Below are positions 2,802-52,552 of a stretch of 64,000 bases of DNA, piece by piece. The notes below the pieces were generated by a model. It made no database searches and was not told where the DNA came from. It saw nothing but the letters and a program-made list of their open reading frames with translations. Source of the DNA: Candidatus Chloroploca sp. Khr17 (GTDB lineage: Bacteria; Chloroflexota; Chloroflexia; Chloroflexales; Chloroflexaceae); assembly GCF_004138165.1 (NCBI RefSeq), contig NZ_RYFF01000004.1, positions 1-64,000 of the forward strand, in the 5' to 3' direction. The translations under genes were made by a program, and so were the position numbers. Numbering within the stretch: position 1 is the first letter of the stretch; every line of letters starts with the position of its first letter.

Positions 2802-4628
2802 CTAACGCTGAGGCGCATGCAGGATCATCGCCCGCGGCCCGTTGAGGGTGAGGCTCGCGCCAGTGGTGATGGTCACACCGTTACCTCCATAACGGGGGTC
2901 TTCGCTGTCCAACAAGAGTTCCCAATTGCCGCGCGGCAGGGCTTCCAGCGTCTGTGGCTTGTCACCGAGGCAGATAATGATCAAGAGATCAGTGCCGTTG
3001 GGAGCCCAGCGATGCATAATCAGTGTTGTCAAACCAAAGGGCGTGACGCTATAGGCGTCGCGCCGACGCAAACGGAGTGCCGGATGGCTGTGGCGCAGCG
3101 CCAGCAGATCCTGATAGAGGGTCAGGACTTCAGTATGAGGCGACACTGCACGTTCATGCCAGCGGAGCTGTGAGGCCGCAAAGGTTGTCGGATCTTGCGG
3201 ATCGGGAATCGTTGTGCCACTAAAGGCGGTAAAGGCGGCAAACTCCTTGCGGCGACCTTCCGTCACCATGTGACCCAACTCGGGATGATGATCGGTAAAA
3301 AAGAGAAACGGCGTCGAGGCTGCCCACTCCTGGCCCATCCAGAGCAACGGCGTTTGGGGGGCCACCAGCAGCAGCGTCGAAGCAGCCCGATAGGCGGCCA
3401 GGCTCACCGTATGGTTGAGCCGCTCACCCAGGGCGCGGTTGCCCACCTGGTCGTGATTCTGGATGCAGTAGACAAAGCTCGGTGGGGTCAGATCACGGGC
3501 CGGTGCCCCCCGTGGATGCCCCAGATGGGGCGAGACCTGGCCCTGGTAAAACCAACCCTGCGCCATCGTCGCGGCTAGATCGGTCGCGTTCCCCGTATAA
3601 TCGCCGTAGTAACCATCCTGCTCACCAGTCAAGGCCACCCGCACTTGATGATGAAAATCATCCGACCAGACCGCATCAAGGTTCCAGCCAGTCGACCGGA
3701 TCAACGCAGGATCGTTGCCCTCATGCTCGGCAATGAGCAAAAAGTGGCGCTCAGCAGGCAATGATGCACGAACCCGCGCCGACATCTCGGCCATCAAGTG
3801 GGTCGGGCTATCATCAATGATCGCGTGGGTTGCATCAAGACGCAGGCCATCAAGGTGAAACTCGTGCGCCCAGTAGAGCACATTGTTCACAAAAAAATCA
3901 CGCACCGGCTGCGTTCCCGGGCCATCAACATTCACCGCATCCCCCCACGGGGTCTGGTGGCGATCAGTGAAATAGTCACGGCTAAACTCGCGCAGATAGT
4001 TGCCATCTGGCCCAAAATGGTTATAGACCACATCAAGCAAGACAGCCAACCCCCGACGGTGCGCCGCATCAACAAGCCGCCGCAGGCCCTCGGGACCGCC
4101 ATACGCCCGTGACGGCGCATAGAGATTGACGCCATCGTAGCCCCAGTTGTGGGTGCCGGGGAAATCGGCCACGGGCATCAACTCAAGCGCCGTAACCCCG
4201 AGCGCTTTGAGCACATCGAGTTTGTCAATCAAGGCGTCAAAGGTACCCTGGGGCGTGGCCGTACCAACGTGCAACTCGTAGATCACCAGATCTTCGAGCG
4301 GCAAGCCGCGCCAGTCCGCATCACTCCAAACAAACGCAGCGGGATCAACCACCTCTGACCAACCATGAACCCCCTCGGGCTGGAAGCGCGAGGCCGGATC
4401 AGGCCGTGGATCGCCGCCATCAACCCGATAGGCATAACGCATCCCCGGACGGACGTCGGCGACATGGGCCGCAAAATAGCCGTCAGCCTCACGGGTGAGC
4501 CTGAACGTCTGCTTGCCCTCGGGGAACGCATCGATCATCACCGCAACCTCGCGTGCCGCTGGTGCCCAGACGCGAAACAGCGTACCCTCTGGATCGGGTG
4601 ATGCTCCTATCGAAAGTTGCCAATGCAT
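2802..4628 (-). CDS. treZ: Malto-oligosyltrehalose trehalohydrolase
   Basis: 608 aa, the usual size for TreZ (GH13). It hydrolyses maltooligosyl trehalose to release trehalose. The N-terminal Ig-like CBM48 region begins GTLFRVWAP, and the GH13 signature regions follow in order. These are DVVYNHFG (about 199-206), GLRLDATHAI with nucleophile D265, IAEHEG with acid/base E301, and QNHDQVGN. Residues around EDLVIYELHVG and the C-terminal beta domain also fit TreZ. ATG 4628 follows AAAGGAG at 5-base spacing. Its normal partner TreY (maltooligosyl trehalose synthase) is not in the window, so it stands alone here, about 53 kb from the GlgE cluster. The gene converges on the LCP gene across a repeat. 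Confidence 0.95.
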   Translation of the reverse strand: MHWQLSIGASPDPEGTLFRVWAPAAREVAVMIDAFPEGKQTFRLTREADGYFAAHVADVRPGMRYAYRVDGGDPRPDPASRFQPEGVHGWSEVVDPAAFVWSDADWRGLPLEDLVIYELHVGTATPQGTFDALIDKLDVLKALGVTALELMPVADFPGTHNWGYDGVNLYAPSRAYGGPEGLRRLVDAAHRRGLAVLLDVVYNHFGPDGNYLREFSRDYFTDRHQTPWGDAVNVDGPGTQPVRDFFVNNVLYWAHEFHLDGLRLDATHAIIDDSPTHLMAEMSARVRASLPAERHFLLIAEHEGNDPALIRSTGWNLDAVWSDDFHHQVRVALTGEQDGYYGDYTGNATDLAATMAQGWFYQGQVSPHLGHPRGAPARDLTPPSFVYCIQNHDQVGNRALGERLNHTVSLAAYRAASTLLLVAPQTPLLWMGQEWAASTPFLFFTDHHPELGHMVTEGRRKEFAAFTAFSGTTIPDPQDPTTFAASQLRWHERAVSPHTEVLTLYQDLLALRHSHPALRLRRRDAYSVTPFGLTTLIMHRWAPNGTDLLIIICLGDKPQTLEALPRGNWELLLDSEDPRYGGNGVTITTGASLTLNGPRAMILHAPQR

Positions 4629-50916: not shown

Positions 50917-51017
50917 CGCTGACTCCTGCAAGATATTTGACAACCGGGAATATCTCCCCTATAATTGTCCGTATTGTAAAACATAGTTGTGACATCCGCT
51001 CTGGTTTGACCCTCCAG

Positions 51018-51023
51018 TATAAT
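51018..51023 (+). promoter_or_regulatory. -10 element of the S1 leader RNA
   Basis: TATAAT about 235 bases ahead of the S1 start. Transcription would begin near 51030. No canonical -35 hexamer is found 16-18 bases before it; TTGACC at 51006 is too close. A second TATAAT at 50960-50965 reads the same way. Confidence 0.5.
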
Positions 51024-51029
51024 ACATCA

Positions 51030-51194
51030 TCTTTCTACATGATGAGGACGGAGAGCCAGTCACCTGGTAGAGCCTGCATAAAGGCACTGGCGTGGAGCGT
51101 GCAAAGCTGTTAGCGACAGCTTCCTAGCGTATCCAGGCTCATCTCACGCGATATATATTTCGCGCCTGCCTACATCAGGATGGCGTTTTTTTTT
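51030..51194 (+). ncRNA. Candidate structured leader or small RNA with intrinsic terminator
   Basis: About 165 nt of structure before the S1 gene. Stem a: GCCAGT (51055-51060) with ACTGGC (51086-51091). Stem b: GAGCCTG (51070-51076), inside the loop of a, pairs with CAGGCTC (51134-51140) outside it, making a pseudoknot. Hairpin c: AAGCTGT/ACAGCTT (51104-51122, loop TAGCG). Hairpin d: CGCGA/TCGCG (51147-51164). Terminator: 51163-51171 with 51177-51185 and T9 at 51186-51194. TGATGAGG (51040-51047) can instead pair with CCTACATCA (51169-51177), which would break the terminator. I match no known riboswitch class. A 24-codon frame from 51039 could be a leader peptide. Confidence 0.6.
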
Positions 51195-51252
51195 GGTCAT
51201 GGCGTGCGGAATGCACACAGCTGTGTAAATCTCTTCGAGGAGGCTTTGAAGC

Positions 51253-52485
51253 ATGTCGGTGCAATCGGATCAGATTACATTGGAGGATCAGGAGGATCTT
51301 GACTGGACGTTGTTATTAGATGAGTATGATTATGCCCGTCCGCAGCGCGGTGAGTTGCGTGAGGGCATGGTAATGCAAATTGAAGATAACGGCGTGCTTG
51401 TTTCGATCGGGACGAAGCGTGAAGGTGTGATCCCTTCGCAAGACCTGCGCCAGATGGGCGATGAATTCCTGAGTACACTTCAGGTAGGCGAAACAATTCA
51501 GGTCTATGTCCAGGAACCTGAAAACCGAGATGGTGATCTTATCCTCTCCCTGACGATGGTTCAGGTGGCAAAAGACTGGGAATATGCCGAGCAACTCTTT
51601 AAAGACGGCGGCATTACCCGTTGCAAGGTGATCGGGTTTAATAAGGGTGGCCTTCTGGTGCAGTTTAATCGCATCCGTGGTTTTGTGCCTGCCTCGCAGG
51701 TTGCACAGTTGCACGGACGTACTGCTGCCGAGGAACGCCAGCAGGCGCTGCAAAAGATGGTCAATCAAGAGATTCCGCTCAAGGTGATTGAGGTTGACCG
51801 CGAGCGCAATCGTCTCGTGCTCTCCGAGCGTAGCGCAACGCAAGAGTGGCGCAAGGCGCAGAAGATCCGGCTCTTGACTGAACTCCAGCCAGGTGATGTG
51901 TTGAGCGGGCGCGTCAATCAGTTGACCAACTTCGGGGCCTTTATTGACCTCGGGGGGGCCGATGGGCTGGCTCATATTTCTGAGTTGAGCTGGCAGCGCG
52001 TCAACCATCCCCGCGAGGTGCTCCAGCCCGGCCAGGAAGTCAAGGTGGTTGTGGTCGAAATTGACCGTGACCGCGAGCGCATCGGGCTCTCGATCCGTCA
52101 ACTCCAGGCCAATCCCTGGGATACGATTGATCAGCGCTATACGCTCGGTCAACTGGTCACTGGCCCCGTCACGAATGTTACCCCCTTTGGAGCGTTTGTG
52201 CAGGTCGAAGAGGCCGTCGAGGGGCTTATTCACGCGAGTGAACTCGATGTTGACCCCCAGACCCAGCCACGTGATGTGTTGCAGCCCGGCCAGGAAGTGA
52301 CGGCAAAGGTGATTAGCCTTGATCGTCAGCGCCAGCGGATGGGTCTGTCACTCCGCCGCATCGCTGAAAATGATAAAGAAGGCGAAGAAGCCACTGAGCC
52401 TGAGCCAGTTGAGGCCCAACCTGCGGCAGACACCGAGGCTCCGACTGAGGTCAATGCGACCGCCGAAGCGGCGGCAACTGAATAG
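51253..52485 (+). CDS. rpsA: Ribosomal protein S1-like protein, four S1 domains
   Basis: 410 aa. Four S1 RNA-binding domains at about 32-102, 118-194, 212-283 and 298-369, each with the GxVxxxxxxGxFVxx core (for example VNQLTNFGAFIDLGGADGLAHISEL). An acidic Glu/Ala-rich tail ends the protein. S1 helps load structured mRNAs on the 30S subunit; bacterial S1 proteins have four to six domains. ATG 51253 has GAGGAGG at 9 bases. It has a long structured leader of its own, consistent with S1 autoregulation, and a strong terminator after it, so it is probably monocistronic. Confidence 0.93.
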   Translation: MSVQSDQITLEDQEDLDWTLLLDEYDYARPQRGELREGMVMQIEDNGVLVSIGTKREGVIPSQDLRQMGDEFLSTLQVGETIQVYVQEPENRDGDLILSLTMVQVAKDWEYAEQLFKDGGITRCKVIGFNKGGLLVQFNRIRGFVPASQVAQLHGRTAAEERQQALQKMVNQEIPLKVIEVDRERNRLVLSERSATQEWRKAQKIRLLTELQPGDVLSGRVNQLTNFGAFIDLGGADGLAHISELSWQRVNHPREVLQPGQEVKVVVVEIDRDRERIGLSIRQLQANPWDTIDQRYTLGQLVTGPVTNVTPFGAFVQVEEAVEGLIHASELDVDPQTQPRDVLQPGQEVTAKVISLDRQRQRMGLSLRRIAENDKEGEEATEPEPVEAQPAADTEAPTEVNATAEAAATE

Positions 52486-52500
52486 CTCTATGCGAGCCAG

Positions 52501-52552
52501 AACAGAAACGGGTGAGAAGCGATGAATTGATCGCTCCTCACCCGTTTCTGTT
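52501..52552 (+). terminator. Long terminator hairpin after the S1 gene
   Basis: AACAGAAACGGGTGAGAAGC onward pairs with GATCGCTCCTCACCCGTTTC onward: 23 bp with a single mismatch and a GAATT-centred loop. It starts 15 bases past the S1 stop. TTGTAT follows the stem. Confidence 0.85.

Follow-up and report, generated by a model that had tools for sequence, protein, structure and literature searches.

A conserved structured leader ahead of a ribosomal protein S1 gene in Chloroflexales: a putative transcription attenuator

The S1 gene and its upstream signals

The window (the whole stretch of 64,000 nucleotides that was analysed) contains at 51253-52485, on the forward strand, a gene for a bS1-type ribosomal protein S1 of 410 amino acids. 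Its product matches the NCBIfam model for 30S ribosomal protein S1 with an E-value of 8e-104 and 347.7 bits, a score below the curated cut-off of 368, and PDB bS1 chains also match the protein. The genome carries a second S1 paralogue (G000:C35:62622-63719, also L155 1132-2340), with 402 amino acids and ~43% identity to the S1 of the window, which reaches 373.5 bits with the same model; a copy of the leader described here is absent at this second gene. The closest two relatives of the window are Candidatus Chloroploca species. Directly 3' of the S1 stop codon lies a long inverted repeat (ACAGAAACGGGTGAG...CTCACCCGTTTCTGT; 52501-52551), which probably marks where a monocistronic S1 unit ends, though it has no clear T-run.

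Upstream of the gene, four signals frame the analysis:

50937-50965, forward strand: sigma-70-type promoter TTGACA-17 nt-TATAAT for the leader and S1 (12/12 match)
50972-51252, forward strand: 5' leader RNA up to the S1 start codon, ~280 nt, its start placed 7 nt after the -10 element
51018-51023, forward strand: a further TATAAT, inside the RNA and present only in three Chloroploca genomes
51238-51243, forward strand: Shine-Dalgarno sequence AGGAGG of S1, read in the sequence and kept in relatives

The promoter at 50937-50965 is found with equal spacing ahead of nearly all homologous leaders, and the AUUGUA start that follows it is conserved in family f1 leaders. Given this conserved promoter, the leader RNA is expected to start near 50972, as counted from the -10 position. 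An earlier note on this DNA had described a structured leader before the S1 gene, and such a leader is indeed present, with S1 starting at 51253. The note had taken the TATAAT at 51018 as its promoter. We rejected that motif, which is genus-specific, absent from relatives outside Chloroploca and located within the RNA; the conserved promoter is the perfect TTGACA-17-TATAAT. The 5' end of the RNA lies ~45 nt further upstream than in the note, and the added part holds the most conserved sequence of the leader (AUUGUAAAACAUAGU...UCCGC).

A conserved core linked to a single gene

The consensus core of the leader comprises P1 (UCCGC:GCGGA), P2 (GGU/GGC:GCC), P3 (CUCC:GGAG), a variable P4, and P5 (GCCU:AGGC), which sits beside P1. 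The corresponding elements of the window are the following:

50973-50987, forward strand: A/U-rich segment AUUGUAAAACAUAGU, nearly invariant in family f1 (alignments A1/A3), a candidate single-stranded binding site
50995-50999, forward strand: P1 5' strand UCCGC; in the alternative pairing AT2, the terminator 3' arm pairs with 50997-51002
51003-51005, forward strand: P2 5' strand GGU, pairing with 51059-51061
51012-51015, forward strand: P3 5' strand CUCC, pairing with GGAG at 51050-51053
51025-51044, forward strand: P4 hairpin, CAUCAU:AUGAUG in the window, with a sequence that differs between genera
51050-51053, forward strand: P3 3' strand GGAG, partner of 51012-51015
51059-51061, forward strand: P2 3' strand, partner of 51003-51005
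51067-51071, forward strand: P1 3' strand GUAGA (GCGGA in relatives), with 4/5 pairs kept
51072-51085, forward strand: P5 hairpin GCCU...AGGC; in the alternative pairing AT1, its 3' strand (51082-51085) pairs with the terminator 5' arm

A covariance model of helices P1-P5 (R1) was built from 24 aligned leaders, the window's among them. It recovers the window with an E-value of 1e-16, the window being one of the model's own source sequences. Matches to R1 were obtained in 41 of 158 Chloroflexia genomes, exactly one per genome and none elsewhere in those genomes. Within the Chloroflexales, an order of green filamentous bacteria (82 genomes), the number is likewise 41, once each, and all matched genomes belong to two families. 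S1 is immediately downstream in 36/36 fetched loci (tblastn), and the further matched genomes were examined via their S1 loci. The leader therefore occupies the 5' UTR of a ribosomal protein gene and is linked to one ribosomal protein gene only, as r-protein leaders are, and this exclusive linkage to S1 makes S1 autoregulation plausible.

The individual helices differ in how well they are documented. P1 has one C-A mismatch in the window's own sequence, and its complementarity across the alignment is significant in a column-permutation test (p=0.0005). For P4, the two halves from one species pair better with each other than with those of other species (p=0.023); its fold z-scores are modest (Stouffer -2.7), and support for this helix is modest only. 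RNAalifold, applied to the core, recovered P1 and P5 only. The folding energy of the stretch quoted in the earlier note is unremarkable (z -1.47; 16/200 shuffles as good). It is the conservation captured by the model matches, together with the column-permutation tests of the key complementarities, that indicates that the leader is more than a chance fold.

Elsewhere in the genome, the core sequence finds only matches with 2-3 mismatches, near the control level. Similarly, the segment AUUGUAAAACAUAGU has its exact copy only at this locus, the other matches carrying 3 mismatches, and a scan for partners of this segment gave no convincing conserved one.

The earlier note had suggested looking in homologues for covariation and for conservation of the stems next to S1 genes. 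The stems are conserved there. No pair reached a significant E-value in a tree-aware covariation test (our own script, with an R-scape-like null), a result explained by stems that are nearly invariant; the paired columns mostly hardly vary, and the power of the test is low.

Terminator and competing pairings

Downstream of the core, the leader contains the terminator-like hairpin with T9 to which the earlier note had drawn attention:

51162-51194, forward strand: intrinsic terminator with a GCGCC..CCU/AGG..GGCGU stem (-9.8 kcal/mol) and T9; a U-run hairpin is also present in the family f1 leaders of A3
51164-51167, forward strand: terminator 5' arm GCCU; its partner in the antiterminator (AT1) is the AGGC strand of P5

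The terminator ends ~60 nt 5' of the S1 start codon, and a terminator of the GCGCC..GGCGC type with a U-run is shared by the family f1 leaders of A3. Between the terminator and S1, no promoter-like site was found on the stretch scanned, spacers included; transcription of S1 must therefore read through the terminator.

A promoter, a discrete RNA of ~220 nt and a terminator, as found in the family f1 leaders of A3, could also belong to a stand-alone small RNA, with S1 receiving leaky read-through only. The constant position of the leader in cis to S1, the missing promoter-like site between terminator and S1 and the missing U-run in Roseiflexus speak against it, and we consider this explanation quite improbable. 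The same promoter-terminator unit resembles 6S RNA (RF00013) in layout and length, a relationship that the earlier note had raised. However, the genome has a separate 6S RNA on another contig (G000:C68, 55.2 bits), above the Rfam threshold, and no 6S match occurs in the window. The leader is therefore not 6S RNA, and the chance that it is a relative is close to nil.

Partners of the two terminator arms were sought by scanning upstream windows across 16 representatives. The best partner of the 5' arm is column 113, which is the P5 3' strand (AT1), with 88% of cells paired and 60% in the next best window. That of the 3' arm is column 25, which corresponds to the P1 5' strand and the following junction (AT2), with 90%. 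For AT1, 0/2000 column permutations were as good; for AT2, p=0.007, both this pairing and the regions compared having been picked once the alignment had been inspected. Because AT1 and AT2 nest, they are compatible with each other, and their joint formation rules out P1, P5 and the terminator.

Chloroflexus has other terminator arms, and the core strands that match them are changed accordingly, with both sides exchanged in two AT1 pairs (A-U to U-A, G-C to C-G) and one AT2 pair (C-G to G-C). These coordinated changes amount to few evolutionary events. Neither AT1 nor the terminator showed significant covariation in shuffle tests, and coevolution of the extended antiterminator flanks is a trend only (p about 0.1).

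The leader might alternatively be a passive structure with a role in stability, processing or thermosensing, its terminator being weak and constitutive and no ligand driving a switch. The absence of significant covariation is compatible with this idea, as are the Viridilinea leaders, which keep a terminator though the middle of the core is lost. It does not account for two terminator arms that are complementary to two core strands beyond chance, nor for the coordinated change of arms and core strands in Chloroflexus, and we judge a passive leader to be improbable.

An intrinsic terminator between promoter and gene and a competing antiterminator pairing are the sequence-level hallmarks of an attenuator, and these features suggest that the leader is very likely a terminator-antiterminator attenuator. 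The earlier note had proposed an attenuator with mutually exclusive pairings; that logic is supported with different strands, the terminator 5' arm pairing with the P5 3' strand and its 3' arm with the P1 5' strand. The segments that the note had paired, TGATGAGG (51040-51047) and CCTACATCA (51169-51177), are complementary as it said, but their helix is not conserved.

This helix of the note, UGAUGAGG:CCUACAUCA, was rejected: it has a probability of 0.12 in the window ensemble and 0-0.01 in the two sister species, and its 5' half falls in the variable P4. A peptide-leader attenuator was likewise set aside, as no conserved ORF with a Shine-Dalgarno sequence, and hence no translated short ORF of a leader peptide, was found in 41 leaders.

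Thermodynamic predictions give a less definite picture. Forced on and off folds lie ~0.3 to 4 kcal/mol apart in 12 leaders. In the window, AT1 has only 4 contiguous pairs, and the predicted ensemble assigns probabilities of 0.07 to the terminator and 0.00 to AT1; neither is favoured, and the prediction is not that of a clean two-state switch. The consensus off fold is shown best, in prediction, by leaders of the Oscillochloris type.

Proposed regulation, related systems and leader variants

Our preferred interpretation, held with moderate confidence, is that the leader is a cis-acting transcription attenuator of S1 in which the folded core leads to termination and free S1 is the likeliest effector. 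The computed support consists of the conservation of the leader, its exclusive linkage to S1, the terminator, the lack of a later promoter-like site, and competing pairings above chance. The anatomy of the switch is well supported, and we infer its direction.

In the proposed sequence of events, RNA polymerase would start near 50972. When P1-P5 are folded and stabilised, their strands would be occupied, the hairpin at 51162-51194 would form, and transcription would stop short of S1 (off). If nothing holds the domain, the terminator 5' arm would be captured by the P5 3' strand, and the 3' arm could be captured by the P1 5' strand; with its arms bound in this way, the terminator could not form and S1 would be transcribed (on). 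Free S1, binding the leader at its A/U-rich 5' end and core, is the likeliest effector and would provide negative feedback. The chance that S1 is the ligand, as its gene association suggests, appears to us evenly balanced. The complete S1-responsive scheme, in which the outer core strands capture both terminator arms and free S1 halts transcription of the gene that encodes it, is put forward tentatively, at somewhat below an even chance.

The same anatomy could serve a ligand other than S1, such as a small molecule, which would make the leader a riboswitch, or another translation factor that reports growth state. The compact, highly conserved core, with its near-invariant nucleotides and attached expression platform, is riboswitch-like in this sense. 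Metabolite riboswitches, however, usually control several genes, and this leader occurs just once in each matched genome, always before S1; we regard a different ligand as unlikely.

Autogenous attenuation by S1 would place the leader beside known regulators of ribosomal protein genes. Leaders that act by transcription attenuation include, for instance, the L20, S4 and L10 types. The leader looks like an r-protein leader of this kind: it shares with them a cis-acting RNA exclusive to one ribosomal protein gene and a terminator/antiterminator output, and differs from them in having no Rfam match. Its membership among autogenous leaders is putative. Under the criterion applied in PMC7247131, linkage to a single ribosomal protein gene identifies that protein as the ligand; the study reports 20 further r-leader candidates, and its main text mentions neither an S1 leader nor Chloroflexi.

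In E. coli, bS1 autorepression at rpsA is translational and needs a weak Shine-Dalgarno sequence, a canonical one abolishing control (PMC10931766). The rpsA initiation region of gamma-proteobacteria is comparable as a structured 5' region of an S1 gene with presumed S1 feedback, whereas the leader described here has a strong AGGAGG, a terminator as its visible output, and no Rfam match. Neither the window nor ten homologous loci gave a credible Rfam match, whether the threshold was the gathering score or a permissive one, in agreement with the earlier note, which had matched no known riboswitch class. Chloroflexi-1 RNA (RF01698) is likewise a structured RNA candidate, reported from Chloroflexus aggregans (PMC2864571), but no Rfam model fits the window or the ten homologous loci, two of Chloroflexus type included. 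No S1 leader of this kind was found in the open literature searched, though one may already have been described.

If the interpretation holds, S1 would be attenuated by termination, a mode unlike the autoregulation of S1 in proteobacteria, which is translational. S1 is known for binding single-stranded RNA with low specificity; here a single folded leader would have to be its target, which offers a compact test of S1 specificity. For a phylum in which few RNA regulators have been studied, the leader adds a candidate r-leader for S1, a protein whose known autoregulation works otherwise.

The output of the leader varies among relatives. Chloroflexus leaders mostly have a different hairpin, followed by UCUUUUU. 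Roseiflexus leaders keep the core and have no U-run, so their output must differ. For instance, in four leaders of the Roseiflexus type (L059, L061, L063, L150), which have no U-run, the P5 5' strand and loop (GCCUUCGU) are complementary to a downstream ACGAAGG(C). Similarly, L152 has the core without a U-run, and there GCCUUCGC occurs with GCGAAGG.

Other leaders depart from the core itself. Two from Candidatus Viridilinea (L040 and L041, with S1 at 3001) have the same promoter and 5' start but lack the middle of the core. They retain a terminator-like hairpin with T9, in whose loop a GCGG could pair with the 5'-strand CCGC. In five mostly freshwater Roseiflexaceae (L067, L069, L070, L071 and L075), the S1 leader lacks the core and is reduced to a promoter and, no more than a few tens of nucleotides downstream, a short hairpin with a T-run that resembles a terminator.
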